NCBI RefSeq assembly: GCF_900299535.1
Contig: NZ_OMKE01000017.1
Span: 1-64,000 of the forward strand
Reading direction: 5' to 3'
Length of the DNA stretch: 64,000 nt
From: Aquimarina aquimarini
Lineage (GTDB): Bacteria; Bacteroidota; Bacteroidia; Flavobacteriales; Flavobacteriaceae
Part shown: one piece after another, positions 497 through 12,516 of the stretch
Numbering within the stretch: position 1 is the stretch's first letter
How the letters are laid out: each line of letters opens with the position of its first letter
Notes under the pieces: generated by a model
Seen by the model: the letters and a program-made list of their open reading frames with translations, nothing else
Databases searched by the model: none
What the model was told of the DNA's origin: nothing
Made by a program: the position numbers and the translations under genes

Positions 497-2155
497 CTAA
501 AACTGAAAATAAATAAATGGCTGAAAATCTGCCGCATAGGTTTGATAGCATAGTATTGCTACTACCATTGCTACGAGCGCCTTGATTACTATATTACTTT
601 TTACAAATACGTTTTCTGCCCAGTCCTTAGTACGATATGGCAACCAGTGTGTAATATACCCCAATGCCATTACTATAAAAACAATACGATACTCCCACAA
701 TACGGCAAGGGCATTCTGCCAATCCATATTGGTTATCACTTGTTGATAAAAACGATTGATATGATCCATACTATTTCCTCTAAAATAGATACGGGTAAAG
801 GTTATAAAAAGAAATGTCAAAGTGATTTTCCATAACAATGCATACCATTTTGTAGAGCTTTCATAGGGGCTGACTTTACGCCAATATTTATAAGCTACTA
901 CCCCCAAACCATTTAATCCGCCCCAGATCACAAATTTCCATGAAGCTCCGTGCCATAGCCCACCGATAAGCATGGTAATCATAATATTTACGTTTCTATT
1001 AAAATGCCATGCCAGTTTTGATGAAAAGAGTGTCATAATCAAAAAACCACCTACAACAGCCGCTGCCACCAACGCAATAGAATAGTCTGATACGGCAAAG
1101 ACACCCAAAAAAGTAAATAGTAATACAAAGGCATAAGAGAAGATGCTTCCGCTACGATTACCTCCTATAGGAATATATAAGTAATCTTTGAGCCAGCTTG
1201 ATAATGAGATATGCCATCTCCTCCAGAAATCACCACAATGAATTGCCTTGTATGGGGAGTTGAAATTAACGGGGAGTTTGTACCCCATAAGCATTGCCAA
1301 CCCTATGGCAATATCAGTATATCCAGAGAAATCGCCATAAATCTGTAACGAATATCCAAACATTGCCATGATATTGGTAAAACCAGAGAACATCTCGGGC
1401 ACATCAAATACCCGATCCATAAAATTTGCCGCAATATAATCTGCAAACAACATTTTTTTGATCAGCCCTTTAAGAATCATAAAAGTAGCTCTCCCAAACT
1501 CTTCTTGGGTTATGGTTATTTTTTTTCTGATCTGTGGCACAAAATCTGATGCTCGCACTATAGGCCCTGCTACTAATTGAGGAAAGAAACTTACAAAAAA
1601 TCCAAAATCAATAATCGAATTGAGGGGCTTGATCTGTTTTCTGTATATATCAACACTATAACTAATCGTCTGGAAGGTATAAAAGGATATCCCTACCGGA
1701 AGAATTATTTTATCTACCGTAAAATAATCTGTTGTTGCCCATGTATTTGCCCATTGTGCTAGATAGTTTATAACCTCATAGTCTGTTTGAAACAGGTAGT
1801 TATATGAATCTGCAAAAAAATAGGCATATTTAAAATAGCACAGTGTACTCAGGTTGATGATCACACTGATTGCTACCAATATCTTTTGCAATATTACCGA
1901 TCTACTTTTATAGATGGCTTTGCCCAAAAAGAAATCATTGACGGTACTAAATAATAAGATACCTATAAAAAATCCACTGGTTTTATAATAAAAAAGTAAA
2001 CTGATTGCGAAAAGATAAGCGCTTCGCAAATTTTTATTACTATATACTATTGCATAGATAAAATATACTACTGCAAAAAATATCCAGAAGTTTGCCTGTG
2101 TAAAAATTAAGGGGAATTCTTCTGAAAAAGAAAATATGTCTATAAGTCTATTCAT
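497..2155 (-). CDS. MBOAT family O-acyltransferase (AlgI/DltB-like)
   Basis: Membrane-bound O-acyltransferase of 552 residues, close to the usual AlgI length. It has many transmembrane spans, the family block FWRRWHISLSSWLKDYLYIP around residues 305-325, and the conserved histidine of GLWHGASW (H402). Family members pass an acyl (usually acetyl) group across the inner membrane to periplasmic glycan O-acetylation partners. The ATG overlaps the stop of the upstream SGNH gene (ATGA at 2152-2155), implying translational coupling. The two upstream SGNH-type proteins are the likely periplasmic transferases, so the locus probably O-acylates an exported polysaccharide. The substrate cannot be told from sequence. 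The frame stays open for 34 codons after the TAG. Confidence 0.93.
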   Translation of the reverse strand: MNRLIDIFSFSEEFPLIFTQANFWIFFAVVYFIYAIVYSNKNLRSAYLFAISLLFYYKTSGFFIGILLFSTVNDFFLGKAIYKSRSVILQKILVAISVIINLSTLCYFKYAYFFADSYNYLFQTDYEVINYLAQWANTWATTDYFTVDKIILPVGISFYTFQTISYSVDIYRKQIKPLNSIIDFGFFVSFFPQLVAGPIVRASDFVPQIRKKITITQEEFGRATFMILKGLIKKMLFADYIAANFMDRVFDVPEMFSGFTNIMAMFGYSLQIYGDFSGYTDIAIGLAMLMGYKLPVNFNSPYKAIHCGDFWRRWHISLSSWLKDYLYIPIGGNRSGSIFSYAFVLLFTFLGVFAVSDYSIALVAAAVVGGFLIMTLFSSKLAWHFNRNVNIMITMLIGGLWHGASWKFVIWGGLNGLGVVAYKYWRKVSPYESSTKWYALLWKITLTFLFITFTRIYFRGNSMDHINRFYQQVITNMDWQNALAVLWEYRIVFIVMALGYITHWLPYRTKDWAENVFVKSNIVIKALVAMVVAILCYQTYAADFQPFIYFQF

Positions 2156-3429
2156 TTAATAATCTGGCTCAAAACAGTGTTATACTCCAATTGCATTTCT
2201 TTTTCCCAGGAATGTGCTAATGCTTGTAGTAGTAGGTCTGCTTTTATTCTATATCCCGCTACCGTAAAATGAATACGGTCTCGAGGCATTAATTTATTTG
2301 TATACCAACTTTGTGAGGAATTGAATCCTCCCATAATTTCATAAAAATCCCAAATCGCCATTTTTTGTTCTTTTGCTACTTCATAAATTACTTTTTGAGC
2401 TATACGGGTTCTGGGATTAGGAATTTTTCTTTTATAATAGGAATCATTGGGTACGGTAAGCAGTACAGCGCAATCAGGATTTGCTTTTTGAATTGTTTTG
2501 ATCAACTCTGTATAGTATGCCTTATACTTTGCTGGATCAAAATCTGGGTGATAAGCATCATTGGTACCAATGGATACAATAAATAAATCAGGTTTATAGA
2601 GCATCAATTGCTCTTCAAAATATCGGCATCGTTTATAGAACCCAAAACTCCCCCCGTTTACCCCTATAGAAGTGTATTGTATCCCGCTATTATCATTCAT
2701 AAGCTCTATCCCCATCATCAGGAATTCTGCATTCTGTGCTCCTTTTACTTTACGCACACAAAACTCGATCTCTTCAACCGTTTTATTAAAGGTATATTCT
2801 ACAAAATGTGCTTGTTTGTTTTCTGCTACTGCAGTGACAAGGCTATCTTGTTTAAAAGATATTTCATAATCTGTGGTCCAGTTATCATAAAAAATTCTGA
2901 TTTTATTAAAATCATACATTTTTTCGTGGTAGTTATTACCGTTGGCTTTTATTTTTATATTGGAAACACTATCCTTGAAAACAGCAGTGACTCCTGATAA
3001 TCCCCAAGCTATACTATCTCTATTGACCGAGCATCGATACCCACGCCATACTCCATCATATTTTACTCTGTAATTACCAGGGTTATTGGTTTTTGCAATA
3101 CTATACGGGTATATAAATCCACGTTGTCCTTTTGCTTCTGGATTCATCATTTGCAGGTATGATCGTAATCGATTTGAATAGATATCTGCCTGAATGTGTG
3201 ATCCACCGATATGAAAAATGTGTACATTCTCTTTTTTGCCATTGGCAATAGCATCTAGTTTTTGATATAGTTTTTTGAAAGCTGGAGAGTTTTCTGCCAT
3301 CTTGATTGTATTGGCTTTCCAGTTTATAAAAGTATATTTATTCTTTAATGTATCTATAGTATAGGTCTGTGCTATGGCTGGTAGTACCAGTAGCCATAGT
3401 AAAAAAAATAATTGTCTACGTTTCTTCAT
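2152..3429 (-). CDS. Secreted SGNH/GDSL hydrolase-like protein (O-acyltransferase partner)
   Basis: A 425-residue exported protein with a lysine/arginine-rich n-region and signal peptide (MKKRRQ..., cleavage likely after AIAQ, about residue 21). SGNH blocks are visible: block I HIGGSHIQAD with S77, block III IGTNDAY, and block V DRIHF with D384 and H387. SGNH enzymes are esterases or acetyl transferases; next to an MBOAT protein a periplasmic glycan O-acetyltransferase or esterase role is likely. An upstream in-frame ATG at 3453 adds eight residues, but the 3429 start gives a better signal peptide and still overlaps the upstream gene by 14 bases. The stop overlaps the acyltransferase start. 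Confidence 0.85.
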   Translation of the reverse strand: MKKRRQLFFLLWLLVLPAIAQTYTIDTLKNKYTFINWKANTIKMAENSPAFKKLYQKLDAIANGKKENVHIFHIGGSHIQADIYSNRLRSYLQMMNPEAKGQRGFIYPYSIAKTNNPGNYRVKYDGVWRGYRCSVNRDSIAWGLSGVTAVFKDSVSNIKIKANGNNYHEKMYDFNKIRIFYDNWTTDYEISFKQDSLVTAVAENKQAHFVEYTFNKTVEEIEFCVRKVKGAQNAEFLMMGIELMNDNSGIQYTSIGVNGGSFGFYKRCRYFEEQLMLYKPDLFIVSIGTNDAYHPDFDPAKYKAYYTELIKTIQKANPDCAVLLTVPNDSYYKRKIPNPRTRIAQKVIYEVAKEQKMAIWDFYEIMGGFNSSQSWYTNKLMPRDRIHFTVAGYRIKADLLLQALAHSWEKEMQLEYNTVLSQIIK

Positions 3430-4927
3430 TGGTTTTAGGTTCTTTGAGGTCAAGGTATAGGGCTGTAAAAAATAGTTCAGATATTATTTTGGTTCCTTTC
3501 CAGGTAAAATGCATATAATCTTTGGCGGTGAGTTTTTCATCTACCCATAATGCCATTGCTCCTTTTCCTCCCATAGCCTTATACATGCTCCAGTAAGCAA
3601 CATTATTCTCTAGGCAGGTTTCCATTAATTTAGTATCTAAATAAGGTAACAGAGGATAGGTTTCCATTTTTCCGTTTACGGGTTGGCACATATCTGTAGG
3701 GCCAATAAATATAAAACTGGTATTTTTTGCACGTCTTCGTATCCAATTTGCTTGATTCACAACTCTCTTTGCATACTTCTCAACATCTGTAGAGTCTTTG
3801 AGGTAAGGCATCGTATTACCCCCGTATTGCATAATAACAATCTTGGGTTTTAGTTGTCTTGCCATTCGGCTATAGGTTCCTGCATTGGAACTGGCAAATA
3901 TAGTTCCTGATGCACCTCTCATAGCAATATTATCTATTTGCACTCCAGAAGGGGCATCTAGTGTTAATCCATAAAAATCTGCACTTATCTTACCTTCCAC
4001 CTCTATTTTGAGATTGGTAGGAGTCGTACTTGTTCTTATTTTATATTGATGATATTTTCCGTCTGTTATCAAGCTATCTTGTTGTATCAATACTCCATCA
4101 TTGTACACCGTTATTTTTATAGGAGTATTACAATTACCGTAATGCAATCCTATATTGGTAAACCTTCTAAATTTTGCATACGCTTTTGTAGATTTACCTA
4201 TGGTTACCGATGCTTTTACTACTGGCAATACACTCATAGCCGTACTATCTGGCTGTTCTGTTTGGTATGCTGTAAATCGTGAAACAGAGAGGTATGCCCC
4301 ATATTTTCTATGAGAAAACTTTTTTTGAGTAGGATCAAAGTAAGCATATCGTTGCCAATTCTCGCTGGGAGTTATTATTGCACTTATCTGGTTATAGACT
4401 GGTAATACAGGTAAAAAACCTGGTCCCCCGCCACCATACATAAGCTGTAGCCTATTGCGTAAATACCCAGTGATACGGTCTCCTTCTATTTGAGAGTCTC
4501 CATAATGTAAAATTCTACATGATCTTGATGCTAGTTTTGTTCTTAGCTCATTTGCAAAATCAGGGGAATTCTCAGGGTATTTGATTCGTACAAGTCGGGT
4601 AGTATCTATTTTAGAAAAATCAGGTAATTGAGTAATTTTATCTGTAACAACGGTATCGCTTTTATTGTCTGTAGTTTCTATATCAAGAGGGGTTACAATC
4701 TGAGTAACTTCTAGAACGTCTTGGCGGGTTAGAGTAGTATCTTTCTTTAATCCCAAAAAGGTAGCATATGTTGGATATTTGAGTGATACGTCTTGATAAT
4801 AAAATCCATCATCTTGTGTTTGAGCATTCTCAGTTTTTCCTTGCTCACTCAAAAACATAAGTCCAAATAATCCTCCTAGTATAAATAGGATAAATAATGA
4901 TATATAAATAGGTCTAATTCTCAACAA
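3416..4927 (-). CDS. Membrane-anchored SGNH hydrolase-like protein
   Basis: 503 residues with an uncleaved-looking N-terminal hydrophobic segment (about residues 7-26), so it is probably anchored in the inner membrane facing the periplasm. SGNH features: HYGDSQIEGD with S145, and a C-terminal DYMHF with D470 and H473. The block III position reads QYGGNT instead of the usual GxND, so the oxyanion-hole asparagine is displaced or replaced. It is the first gene of a three-gene coupled set with a second SGNH protein and the MBOAT acyltransferase. In comparable alginate-type systems one SGNH-like protein transfers the acetyl group to the polymer. A role in glycan O-acylation is inferred from this context. 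Confidence 0.82.
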   Translation of the reverse strand: MLRIRPIYISLFILFILGGLFGLMFLSEQGKTENAQTQDDGFYYQDVSLKYPTYATFLGLKKDTTLTRQDVLEVTQIVTPLDIETTDNKSDTVVTDKITQLPDFSKIDTTRLVRIKYPENSPDFANELRTKLASRSCRILHYGDSQIEGDRITGYLRNRLQLMYGGGGPGFLPVLPVYNQISAIITPSENWQRYAYFDPTQKKFSHRKYGAYLSVSRFTAYQTEQPDSTAMSVLPVVKASVTIGKSTKAYAKFRRFTNIGLHYGNCNTPIKITVYNDGVLIQQDSLITDGKYHQYKIRTSTTPTNLKIEVEGKISADFYGLTLDAPSGVQIDNIAMRGASGTIFASSNAGTYSRMARQLKPKIVIMQYGGNTMPYLKDSTDVEKYAKRVVNQANWIRRRAKNTSFIFIGPTDMCQPVNGKMETYPLLPYLDTKLMETCLENNVAYWSMYKAMGGKGAMALWVDEKLTAKDYMHFTWKGTKIISELFFTALYLDLKEPKTNEET

Positions 4928-6074: not shown

Positions 6075-6767
6075 ATGAAAAAGACATTTTTAAAAAGTCT
6101 GTCTAAATTATTGGTACTAGCTGTACTAGGTTTTGCCACCTTATTTACTTCTTGCGAAAAAGAAGCACCGGAAACTTTTGAACAACAAGAAACTGTTCAT
6201 AAACAAACTAGAGATACGTATTTAAATATTTCTGATGAAAATCTTAGTAAAGGGTCATCATTTGCTGGGCGCCCTAATCCAGAACTAATCAGTAACCTTA
6301 CTGTATTTATAGATCAGGGGGTTCCTATGGAGTGGGTTAACCCTACAGTTAGAGCTATTAGCGAATGGAATAGTGTAAATACCATAACAATGAGAAGGGT
6401 ATTTTCTAGGGTACAAGCTGATATTATTGTAAATGCAAAAGCCGAAAGACCTTTCCTTAATAATTCTCCTGCGGGAGCTGATTTCCCTGATTTTGCCAAC
6501 GGGCCAGCTGGGGAGTTTGTTACTATCAACCTTAATTACAATAATACAAATCCTGTTCTTACACCAAACTTACGATATTATATCATGACACATGAACTTG
6601 GCCATACTCTTGGGCTTCACCATGCAGATGCTGTTCCTCGTGGTGCTAACATTGATTTCATGAAAAATAGGGTTACGGAAGCAGATGAAAATTGGGGTGG
6701 AATATCTCAACAAAATGTTAGATCAATTAATAGAATATTATTTCCTAATTTGGGTGATCCTAGATAA
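6075..6767 (+). CDS. M57-like zinc metalloprotease lipoprotein
   Basis: 230 residues. A lipoprotein signal ends at LFTSC (C27), followed by acidic residues. The catalytic zinc site HELGHTLGLHH is complete (H173, E174, H177, G180, H183), with a plausible Met-turn at DFMKN about 13 residues further on. This HExxHxxGxxH metzincin arrangement in a short secreted protein fits the M57 family of Bacteroidota. It probably acts as a cell-surface or periplasmic endopeptidase; the substrate is unknown. It is a single gene closed by a strong hairpin shared with the convergent pyruvate carboxylase gene. Confidence 0.85.
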   Translation: MKKTFLKSLSKLLVLAVLGFATLFTSCEKEAPETFEQQETVHKQTRDTYLNISDENLSKGSSFAGRPNPELISNLTVFIDQGVPMEWVNPTVRAISEWNSVNTITMRRVFSRVQADIIVNAKAERPFLNNSPAGADFPDFANGPAGEFVTINLNYNNTNPVLTPNLRYYIMTHELGHTLGLHHADAVPRGANIDFMKNRVTEADENWGGISQQNVRSINRILFPNLGDPR

Positions 6768-10666: not shown

Positions 10667-11509
10667 ATGAAAAATAGAATTATTGTATTTGCCAGCCTAC
10701 TACTATTTACCAGTGCATTTTTATCAAGTTGTAATAGTGATGATGACAAAACATCTATTCCTTCTACTCCAGTTACGACTTCAAAACAATACAAAAACAT
10801 TGAAGCGGCTAATACCAAAATAAATGCTATCGTAGAAAATGTTTTTAACACAGAATCTACTATCAAACTACATGGTAACCCTGCTAACAAAATGTCAAAT
10901 TGCATGACAATTACCTCAGAAATAGCAGAACAAAATCAAGTTGTTGTTATTGATTTTGGTACTAATTGTGAAGTATCTAACGGAGAAATTATATCTGGTA
11001 AGATTCGTATGAGTTTTGCTGTGGAGTTAGATACTGAAAGTAAAATAGAAATTAATTATAGTCTTGAAAATGTTATCTACAATGACATTACAGTAAGTGG
11101 TAATGCTACGACTATATTTTCTATTCAAAATGATACTACAGGTGCTACACGCTTTACAACAAATTCAGATTTCTCATTTGCTTGGGGCAATGAAATTTCT
11201 GCTACAAGCACAACTAACTTTGTTACAGAATCAGTTTTTGAAACTAATAATCCAGATACTCCCACTGATTTGATTTTTTATACAGTAACTACAGGTACTA
11301 GTGTAACAGAATTTTCTAATGGTGATCGATACGCTGCAGAAATTACAACTCCTATACGTAATGAGAGCGCTTGTCAATATACAGTAAGTGGTGTTATCGT
11401 TACTACAGAAAATACCGCTACCGTTACCTTGGATTATGGTGATGGAACTTGTGATAATATTGCTACTCAAACTGATAGCGATGGTAATCAAACAACCATA
11501 GAATTATAA
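10667..11509 (+). CDS. Surface-type lipoprotein, first of a tandem paralog pair
   Basis: 280 residues. The signal peptide ends in a lipobox (LSSC, C22) followed by N-S-D-D-D, an acidic motif associated in Bacteroidota with export of lipoproteins to the cell surface. The mature part is rich in Thr, Ser, Asn and Glu with a beta-rich pattern and contains a few cysteines; the C-terminus has YGDGTCDNIATQTDSDGN. No known domain is recognised. A paralog of identical length follows at 11674; both share the leader, the mature beginning and the GDGTCD block. The two genes probably arose by tandem duplication. Each has its own terminator, so they are separately transcribed units. Confidence 0.85.
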   Translation: MKNRIIVFASLLLFTSAFLSSCNSDDDKTSIPSTPVTTSKQYKNIEAANTKINAIVENVFNTESTIKLHGNPANKMSNCMTITSEIAEQNQVVVIDFGTNCEVSNGEIISGKIRMSFAVELDTESKIEINYSLENVIYNDITVSGNATTIFSIQNDTTGATRFTTNSDFSFAWGNEISATSTTNFVTESVFETNNPDTPTDLIFYTVTTGTSVTEFSNGDRYAAEITTPIRNESACQYTVSGVIVTTENTATVTLDYGDGTCDNIATQTDSDGNQTTIEL

Positions 11510-11673: not shown

Positions 11674-12516
11674 ATGAAAAACCGAATTATTGCCTTTGCA
11701 AGTGTACTTATAACAACCGCTTTTATGCTAAGTTGTAGTAGTGACGATGATAATACATCTACAGCTCCTGATGGAGTGATTACTGCTACAAAATATAAGG
11801 ACATAAAATCAGCTAATCGTGAAATTAATGCAGTAGTACAAGGTGCTTTTAACACTCAACCTACTCCTGCTTCTAAGAGTAGCTATATCAATAAAACTAC
11901 TGACTGTACTACTATTGATGGTATGGATGCTGGTACAGGAGGAAATGTTACTATAGATTTTGGTACTAATTGTAGCTTACCTGATGGAGAAACTGTATCT
12001 GGTAAAATTATTATAAGTTTTAGCATTAAAGAAGAAGCTACAGGAGTACGAATCGATATGAATTATTCATTAGAGAACTTTTCTTTTAACGGTATAACTG
12101 TTAGTGGAAATTCTGTTGCTACTATCTCTGCTAATCTAGAGAGTGATCAGTATTTTACTTCAACCTCTGACTATGTATTTACATGGGATGATGGTCTTAA
12201 AGTTACTAGTAAGGATGTTACTTCTACAGAAGTAATCTTGAATCAGGAAACTTTTGAATACCACACACTAGTTCATTTGGATACTAAAGCTGAATTTAAT
12301 AATGGTGATGTGTATACTTCTAAAACTACTGCTCCATTACGAATTGAAAATGGATGTGAATATGTAGTTAGTGGTACTATTGTGACCAATGAAAATGCAG
12401 CAACCACTACATTGGACTATGGTGATGGTACTTGTGATAAGATTGCTAATCAAACAGATAGTGATGGTAACACTACAACAATAGACCTAAGCGTAGAGGA
12501 AAATTTCACTCTATAA
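11674..12516 (+). CDS. Surface-type lipoprotein, second of a tandem paralog pair
   Basis: 280 residues with lipobox LSC (C21) followed by S-S-D-D-D, again a surface-export-like acidic motif. It parallels the gene at 10667 along its whole length: leader MKNRII.FAS, early KYK-I-AN---NA motif, FGTNC, YSLEN, ISGK/VSGK and C-terminal YGDGTCDKIANQTDSDGN, but it ends with eight extra residues. Function unknown; a beta-sandwich-like secreted domain is plausible from the strand pattern. It has its own -7 box and a strong terminator shared with the convergent TRAP binding-protein gene. Confidence 0.85.
   Translation: MKNRIIAFASVLITTAFMLSCSSDDDNTSTAPDGVITATKYKDIKSANREINAVVQGAFNTQPTPASKSSYINKTTDCTTIDGMDAGTGGNVTIDFGTNCSLPDGETVSGKIIISFSIKEEATGVRIDMNYSLENFSFNGITVSGNSVATISANLESDQYFTSTSDYVFTWDDGLKVTSKDVTSTEVILNQETFEYHTLVHLDTKAEFNNGDVYTSKTTAPLRIENGCEYVVSGTIVTNENAATTTLDYGDGTCDKIANQTDSDGNTTTIDLSVEENFTL

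Follow-up and report, generated by a model that had tools for sequence, protein, structure and literature searches.

The first 64,000 nucleotides of contig NZ_OMKE01000017.1 of Aquimarina aquimarini (the window) carry, close to the contig start, three overlapping genes for an SGNH protein with a putative membrane anchor (SgA), a second SGNH protein with a signal peptide (SgB) and an MBOAT protein. We read this trio, with a probability of roughly 0.7, as a Bacteroidota unit for the O-acetylation and de-O-acetylation of peptidoglycan, in which SgA would be the transferase and SgB the esterase. The MBOAT would load acetyl onto its own C-terminal tyrosine, and membrane-anchored SgA would receive it on Ser145 and hand it to peptidoglycan, filling the job that PatB has in Neisseria and Campylobacter. 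Released, periplasmic SgB would then strip acetyl from the mature wall, letting lytic enzymes act. The analysis shows the gene order, the motifs, the predicted folds, the conservation and the co-occurrence; that acetyl is the acyl group, that peptidoglycan is its acceptor and how the two SGNH proteins divide the steps are inferred from these.

Predicted folds and active sites of the SGNH proteins

AlphaFold2 models were built from alignments of 64 SgA and 54 SgB sequences, window proteins included, with pLDDT values of 89.6 for SgA and 90.8 for SgB. In VIA-align comparisons SgA fitted the Ape1 chains with Z scores of 34.5 (Neisseria meningitidis; 332/349 residues, rmsd 2.5), 32.8 (Campylobacter jejuni) and 32.0, the next non-Ape1 chain among the matches listed reaching 15.1; PatB chains scored 12.9-13.5, the same level as many SGNH esterases. 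The corresponding values for SgB were 36.3, 35.4 and 35.1 (340/350 residues), with 17.9 for the next among the matches listed. Moreover, Foldseek returned, for both models, target TM-scores above 0.7 only for Ape1 among the matches listed, namely 4k3u (N. meningitidis) and 8gld and 8gkd (C. jejuni), all of them peptidoglycan O-acetylesterases. In both cases the match to Ape1 covers the SGNH core and also the beta-rich insertion that separates blocks I and II. When PDB sequences were searched with profiles, Ape1 likewise came out on top for SgA (4.7e-31) and SgB (7.7e-28), with xylan and other carbohydrate esterases among the weaker SgB matches. According to the predicted models, SgA and SgB share the fold of Ape1, and SgA, for which an earlier note on this DNA had asked whether an SGNH fold is present at all, does have one. 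Chains of AlgJ, AlgX and DltD were not among the 50 fold matches listed, an absence that by itself excludes nothing.

The catalytic and oxyanion residues are invariant in both families: Ser145, Gly338, Asn371, Asp470 and His473 in 64/64 aligned SgA, and Ser77, Gly259, Asn290, Asp384 and His387 (numbered from the ATG) in 54/54 aligned SgB, with the serine preceding the Asp-His pair along both chains. The earlier note had numbered S77, D384 and H387 in SgB and S145, D470 and H473 in SgA, which is correct from the ATG start, and its complete catalytic set in SgB extends to all 54 aligned sequences. Its idea of a defective partner was rejected, given the five residues invariant in SgA and in SgB, neither family being degenerate. 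Besides, its description of SgA as having QYGGNT in place of GxND overstated the difference: all 64 SgA keep Gly369, Gly370 and the oxyanion Asn371, and it is the following Asp that is replaced. At that position after the block III Asn, residue 372 in the window SgA (Thr) and 291 in the window SgB (Asp), the 64 SgA have Ser (34), Thr (25), Ala (2) or Leu, Gly or Val (one each) and never Asp or Glu, SgB has Asp in 54/54, and the solved Ape1 esterases have Glu (N. meningitidis) or Asp (C. jejuni). The motifs read GDSQ and DYMH in SgA and GGSH and DRIH in SgB, whose GGSH departs from GDSH in 54/54. A hydrophobic residue before the block V His was considered as a discriminator and dropped, since N. 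meningitidis Ape1 has Val there too.

The MBOAT and its C-terminal motif

The MBOAT matches PF03062 (E 2.2e-23; 83.5 bits against a cut-off of 27), and its His402 (GLWHG) and Tyr549 are invariant in 28/28 aligned relatives. Among the 79 named loci that were kept from a scan of genome contigs, a strict FxYxxF terminus is present in 59 of the 63 closed MBOATs, the others being L110, L129, L138 and the frame-broken L134. In C. jejuni, PatA auto-acetylates the tyrosine of FxYxxF and requires the MBOAT histidine, and PatB accepts acetyl from an O-acetyl FIYANF peptide (PMC12148441). The only solved MBOAT relative by sequence at E 0.01 was DltB (6bug, E 2.4e-18). Identity with DltB was considered and rejected: NCBIfam TIGR04091 matched at E 4.5e-39 but with 134.8 bits against an equivalog cut-off of 375.

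Conservation of the trio in relatives

The order SgA-SgB-MBOAT on one strand recurs in 67 of the 79 named loci, and for this reason we do not regard it as a chance arrangement; nine loci stop at a contig end, two (Capnocytophaga bilenii and C. catalasegens) lack SgB between SgA and the MBOAT, and one (L120) lacks the MBOAT. Twenty of the 79 come from Aquimarina, with SgA identities of 60-81%, the next best being at most 54%. In a tree of 60 rows a single branch with support 100/100 separates SgA from SgB, which we read as a probable old duplication kept as a pair. A complete trio was also seen in L125 (CP034120.1), whose record bears the name of a gammaproteobacterium, Glaciecola amylolytica. 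In the tree, however, its SGNH rows group within Bacteroidota, next to a metagenome-assembled genome (MAG) labelled Chryseobacterium, and this may mean that the genes were transferred or that the record is misnamed or contaminated.

Within the window's family, 199 genomes were sampled. The MBOAT type, cut in a score gap (468 versus 357 bits), and SgB occur in an identical set of 23, and SgA in 22 of those, the genome without it (G186) having SgB at a contig edge; the trio is thus accessory and travels as one group. Twenty more family genomes matched the SgB profile at E <= 0.001 but with at most 43.7 bits and were left uncounted. The second sample comprised 149 genomes, drafts included, from the order of G203, a Bacteroidales MAG. 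Here the MBOAT scores had no clean gap and were cut at E 1e-98, and weak matches were scored as absent (SgB profile in 19 genomes, SgA profile in three). All three genes were present in 63 genomes, SgA and MBOAT in 11, SgB and MBOAT in two, MBOAT only in four, SgA and SgB without MBOAT in two, SgA only in one and none in 66, these tallies and those of the family having been compiled by hand with thresholds set after the scores were seen. Occurrence of the SGNH proteins without an MBOAT, a check posed earlier, is mostly not observed, considering the shared 23 of 199 family genomes and the presence of this MBOAT type in 76 of the 79 Bacteroidales genomes with either SGNH protein.

In the ten of the 11 SgA-MBOAT genomes that were read, SgA adjoins the MBOAT and SgB is absent, although with odd SgA lengths in two (L214, 754 aa; L216, 307 aa); the eleventh (G259) has the two genes on separate contigs. 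The loss pattern of 10 versus 2 has a binomial p of 0.039, a value that ignores shared ancestry and draft genomes, and an alternative tally of 12 versus 2, which takes in G211, without this MBOAT, was not relied on. A single MBOAT gene, beside SgA, was found in C. catalasegens, where the sole SgB-profile match is SgA itself. Two clusters per genome were found in C. bilenii (L103, L154) and in G023 (L051, L058). Both genomes combine a window-type SgA-MBOAT pair lacking SgB with a divergent three-gene cluster, and the divergent SgB of G023 has a LysM domain.

A comparable cluster, ape1b-ape1c-pat, was reported by Weadge et al. (2005) in Bacteroides thetaiotaomicron, B. fragilis and Porphyromonas gingivalis. 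They also measured peptidoglycan O-acetylation in the two Bacteroides species, obtaining 27% for B. thetaiotaomicron and 69% for B. fragilis (PMC1199599); in a review from 2024, the MurNAc O-acetylation of three Bacteroides species is put at 56-66% (PMC11382707).

Assignment of roles to SgA and SgB

If the substrate is peptidoglycan, we assign with moderate confidence the writing of the acetyl mark to SgA and its erasure to SgB, because of their topology, a loss pattern of 11 versus 2, the LysM domains of SgB relatives and the residue that follows the block III Asn. In the SgA model, helix 6-26 leads into a linker, part of which (86-99) is modelled with low confidence, and the alignment of the SGNH domain starts near residue 114. 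PatB also has an N-terminal membrane helix and a linker ahead of its SGNH domain (PMC12148441), whereas SgB has a cleavable signal peptide instead. The Gln after the cleavage site fits the expectation for Bacteroidetes proteins that signal peptidase I releases (PMC10653852). About 210 residues, with an inserted beta domain, lie between Ser77 and Asn290 of SgB.

Pfam LysM domains were detected in 12 of 16 scanned divergent SgB relatives from the same kind of cluster, that is, in 5/5 divergent family clusters, 7/10 selected Bacteroidales proteins and not in L052; the ten Bacteroidales proteins were picked partly by length, so the 12/16 is not a random sample, and one divergent family locus cut by a contig end (L059) was left out. 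Over all scanned SgB, alignment A5 included, the count is 12/70, and among 78 scanned SgA (64 + 10 + 4) it is zero. The domain lies inside the inserted middle domain in seven relatives (L054-L058, L183, L188) and at the C-terminus, singly or in two copies, in five from Bacteroidales (L198, L200, L202, L203, L204), and these two positions suggest more than one acquisition.

Several observations weigh against the proposed unit. No LysM domain was found in the 54 SgB of alignment A5, the window SgB included. The block II Gly, located through alignments to Ape1, is kept in 64/64 SgA (Gly338) and 54/54 SgB; in PatB it is reported to be replaced by Ser or Asn (PMC12148441), a recent criterion, since an earlier review has this Gly invariant in PatB (PMC6174289), and hence neither SgA nor SgB resembles PatB at block II. 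The Pfam profile Ape1_N (PF22753) matched neither window protein up to E 0.1 and was above its cut-off in none of the 149 Bacteroidales genomes, with one sub-threshold match, so that it is the fold and the PDB-sequence profile matches that support the comparison with Ape1. The Bacteroides ape1b-ape1c-pat genes were compared with the trio by published description. In that description (PMC1199599), Ape1c lacks roughly 100 residues that follow motif I, a region in which SgB, like SgA, has a long insert, and the motifs GDS(H/F) (motif I) and Dx(V/T)H (motif VII) are not those of SgA and SgB; because both features were examined and differ, we do not file the two proteins as Ape1b and Ape1c. The remaining points concern the roles. 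A mirror-tree analysis of 106 loci with all three genes gave a partial correlation with the MBOAT of 0.41 for SgB and 0.13 for SgA, the bootstrap 95% range of the difference being -0.49 to -0.04; in two Bacteroidales drafts with SgB and MBOAT, SgA was not found; and in G220 and G223 SgB is beside the MBOAT with SgA on another contig.

The roles could therefore be swapped, with SgB as the acetyltransferase and SgA as a membrane-held esterase, or both proteins could transfer. The higher partial distance correlation of SgB, its occurrence with the MBOAT in the absence of SgA in 2/149 Bacteroidales genomes and the unlinking of SgA rather than SgB in the two genomes just named all favour this alternative, as does the position of SgB, not SgA, as direct neighbour of the MBOAT in the 67 complete named loci. 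We consider it rather unlikely, since SgA and MBOAT without SgB is the commoner combination (11 versus 2, counts from draft genomes that are not phylogenetically independent) and C. catalasegens retains SgA only. Furthermore, the LysM domains of divergent SgB and the cleaved signal peptide suit an enzyme of the mature wall, and an acidic residue after the block III Asn is common to SgB and the solved Ape1 esterases. The division of labour suggested earlier is probable, but without its defective partner, the catalytic residues being invariant.

More tentatively, and with somewhat less than even confidence, we propose that the Bacteroidota writer is not PatB but the membrane-anchored, Ape1-fold SgA, an ancient Ape1-type duplication having given a writer and an eraser (SgB) that are distinguished by the anchor and by Ser or Thr in place of Asp after the oxyanion Asn.

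Peptidoglycan as the probable substrate

We hold peptidoglycan to be probably the substrate, because of the Ape1 folds, the LysM domains of divergent SgB, the data on the Bacteroides clusters, the separate location of the MBOATs linked to polysaccharide genes and the housekeeping neighbours. The genome has four more MBOATs, at C50:178-210 kb, near genes for glycosyltransferase, EpsG and two bacterial sugar transferases, a setting in which acylation of polysaccharides would be expected. These four (L060, L061) likewise all end in FIYFQF. Four proteins of 237-334 aa beside or near them had no Pfam match at E 1e-4, and the partners of these MBOATs may be divergent SGNH proteins or something else. 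Among ten neighbour proteins scanned in relatives of the trio, most of those that could be named have housekeeping functions: serine dehydratase, ketopantoate hydroxymethyltransferase, class I tRNA synthetase, a DsbH-type thioredoxin protein, aldehyde dehydrogenase and an ABC ATPase. Another is without a Pfam match, and in C. catalasegens the MBOAT is followed by an M23 peptidase gene, a weak hint at the substrate.

That the trio acylates an exopolysaccharide, a capsule or another surface glycan made elsewhere, in an alginate-like manner, appears improbable. In its favour, there are MBOAT-SGNH pairs that acetylate alginate, cellulose or secondary wall polymers (PMC12148441), xylan and carbohydrate esterases are among the weaker sequence matches of SgB, and the window SgB is without LysM. 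However, Ape1 is by far the best fit to the folds of SgA and SgB among the chains listed, the serine precedes Asp-His here whereas the AlgJ triad is D190, H192, S288 (PMC4148444), the MBOAT lies apart from the C50 MBOATs and their polysaccharide genes, and the conserved neighbours in relatives are mostly housekeeping genes. The earlier reading of an acylation machine made of an MBOAT and two dissimilar SGNH proteins is supported; the exopolysaccharide that it proposed as substrate is unlikely, given the Ape1 folds, the LysM of divergent SgB and the separate polysaccharide region with the four other MBOATs. With peptidoglycan as the substrate, the puzzle that no glycan biosynthesis genes are adjacent disappears. 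A pair of de-acetylating or scavenging esterases beside an MBOAT of unrelated function would agree with the esterase-type fold and the retained block II Gly of SgA and SgB, but we give it hardly any credence, as this MBOAT type and SgB turn up in one set of 23 family genomes out of 199, 22 of them with SgA, and as the genes overlap and the MBOAT bears the FxYxxF of SGNH-partnered MBOATs.

Significance of the proposed unit

O-acetylation of peptidoglycan hinders lysozyme and lytic transglycosylases (PMC6174289). If our reading is true, the patchy distribution of the trio (23/199 family genomes) can serve to predict wall acetylation among these bacteria, the paralogue pair makes the writer and the eraser of one mark directly comparable, and the change from an esterase fold to a transferase becomes a testable question. 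The arrangement was outlined in 2005, before Ape2 became PatB (PMC6174289), and the recent mechanism paper deals with PatA and PatB of Neisseria and Campylobacter (PMC12148441). The word stem 'bacteroid' is absent from that paper and from the 2018 pathway review (PMC6174289), and our literature search found no paper whose available text names a Bacteroidota peptidoglycan O-acetyltransferase. A paper on salt in Zymomonas (PMC13101528) yielded no Ape1 or PatB text in its abstract or in a search for these terms. Altogether, the trio resembles a known arrangement, and the sharp question that it raises is which of SgA and SgB adds the acetyl group.

Gene layout and other features of the window

The window starts at base 1 of the contig, part of a 4.94 Mb draft genome, so 496 bases are visible downstream of the MBOAT. 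The three open reading frames (ORFs) follow one another leftwards on the minus strand from 4927 to 497 (Table 1), and the overlaps claimed earlier are confirmed with the ATG start of SgB. Pfam Lipase_GDSL_2 matches SgB above the cut-off (E 5.1e-16) and SgA under it (E 1e-5).

Table 1. Coordinates of the trio and of its signals in the window.
Feature	Position	Strand	Residues or basis
MBOAT, PatA-like O-acyltransferase, 552 aa	497..2155	-	Catalytic-type His402 in GLWHG; ORF and Pfam
FIYFQF, C-terminal hexapeptide of the MBOAT, FxYxxF acyl-tyrosine shuttle motif	500..517	-	Tyr549 codon 509-511
Overlap of SgB end and MBOAT start, 4 bases, ATGA	2152..2155	-	ORFs
SgB, signal-peptide SGNH protein, predicted Ape1 fold, 425 aa from ATG	2152..3429	-	Ser77, Gly259, Asn290, Asp384, His387
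SgB from alternative TTG start	2152..3453	-	ORF; the ATG precedes the KKRR signal peptide
SgB signal peptide, putative cleavage AIA/Q by eye (Bacteroidetes Q-rule)	3370..3429	-	Gln in 53/54 aligned SgB
Overlap of SgA end and SgB start, 14 bases (SgB from ATG)	3416..3429	-	ORFs
SgA, membrane-anchored SGNH protein, predicted Ape1 fold, 503 aa, TTG start	3416..4927	-	Ser145, Gly338, Asn371, Asp470, His473
SgA N-terminal helix, residues 6-26, putative membrane anchor	4850..4912	-	Predicted model; hydrophobicity by eye

Elsewhere in the window, a putative secreted zinc metalloprotease (6075-6767, plus strand; HELGHTLGLHH, by eye) sits between the trio and a 1150-aa gene resembling pyruvate carboxylase. 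Two similar 280-aa putative lipoproteins are encoded in tandem on the plus strand (10667-11509 and 11674-12516), a duplication judged by eye.

Comparison with known systems

The broad kind of system, an MBOAT-SGNH acyl-tyrosine relay, is already known, and the trio appears to belong to it by the features examined in its sequences, namely an MBOAT, the FxYxxF motif and linked, complete SGNH proteins. The AlgI-AlgJ-AlgX-AlgF system also pairs an MBOAT with more than one SGNH-like partner (PMC4148444), but AlgJ has Asp-His before Ser (PMC4148444), whereas in the trio Ser comes first and the fold match is Ape1; an AlgJ/AlgX-type identity was rejected on the catalytic order and the best fold match. 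The MBOAT of DltB-DltX-DltD is related in sequence and follows the same acyl-tyrosine motif logic (PMC12148441), the motif being on the separate DltX there and on the MBOAT itself in the trio; neither DltA nor DltC was noticed beside the MBOAT in the roughly 500 downstream bases visible.

PatA-PatB-Ape1 of N. gonorrhoeae and C. jejuni shares with the trio an FxYxxF MBOAT, one anchored and one periplasmic SGNH protein and the Ape1 fold (PMC12148441, PMC5077204). The gene order differs, and the anchored SGNH protein of the trio fits Ape1 (Z 34.5) rather than PatB (Z 12.9-13.5). In C. jejuni, loss of ape1 raises the O-acetylation of peptidoglycan (PMC5077204). The Bacteroidetes clusters described by Weadge et al. 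(2005) come from the same phylum, and their order, ape1b-ape1c-pat, equals SgA-SgB-MBOAT. Ape2, now PatB, is not listed for them in the available text, and the trio is likewise without a PatB-type protein; moreover, an Ape1 of P. gingivalis has a predicted membrane anchor (PMC1199599), like SgA.

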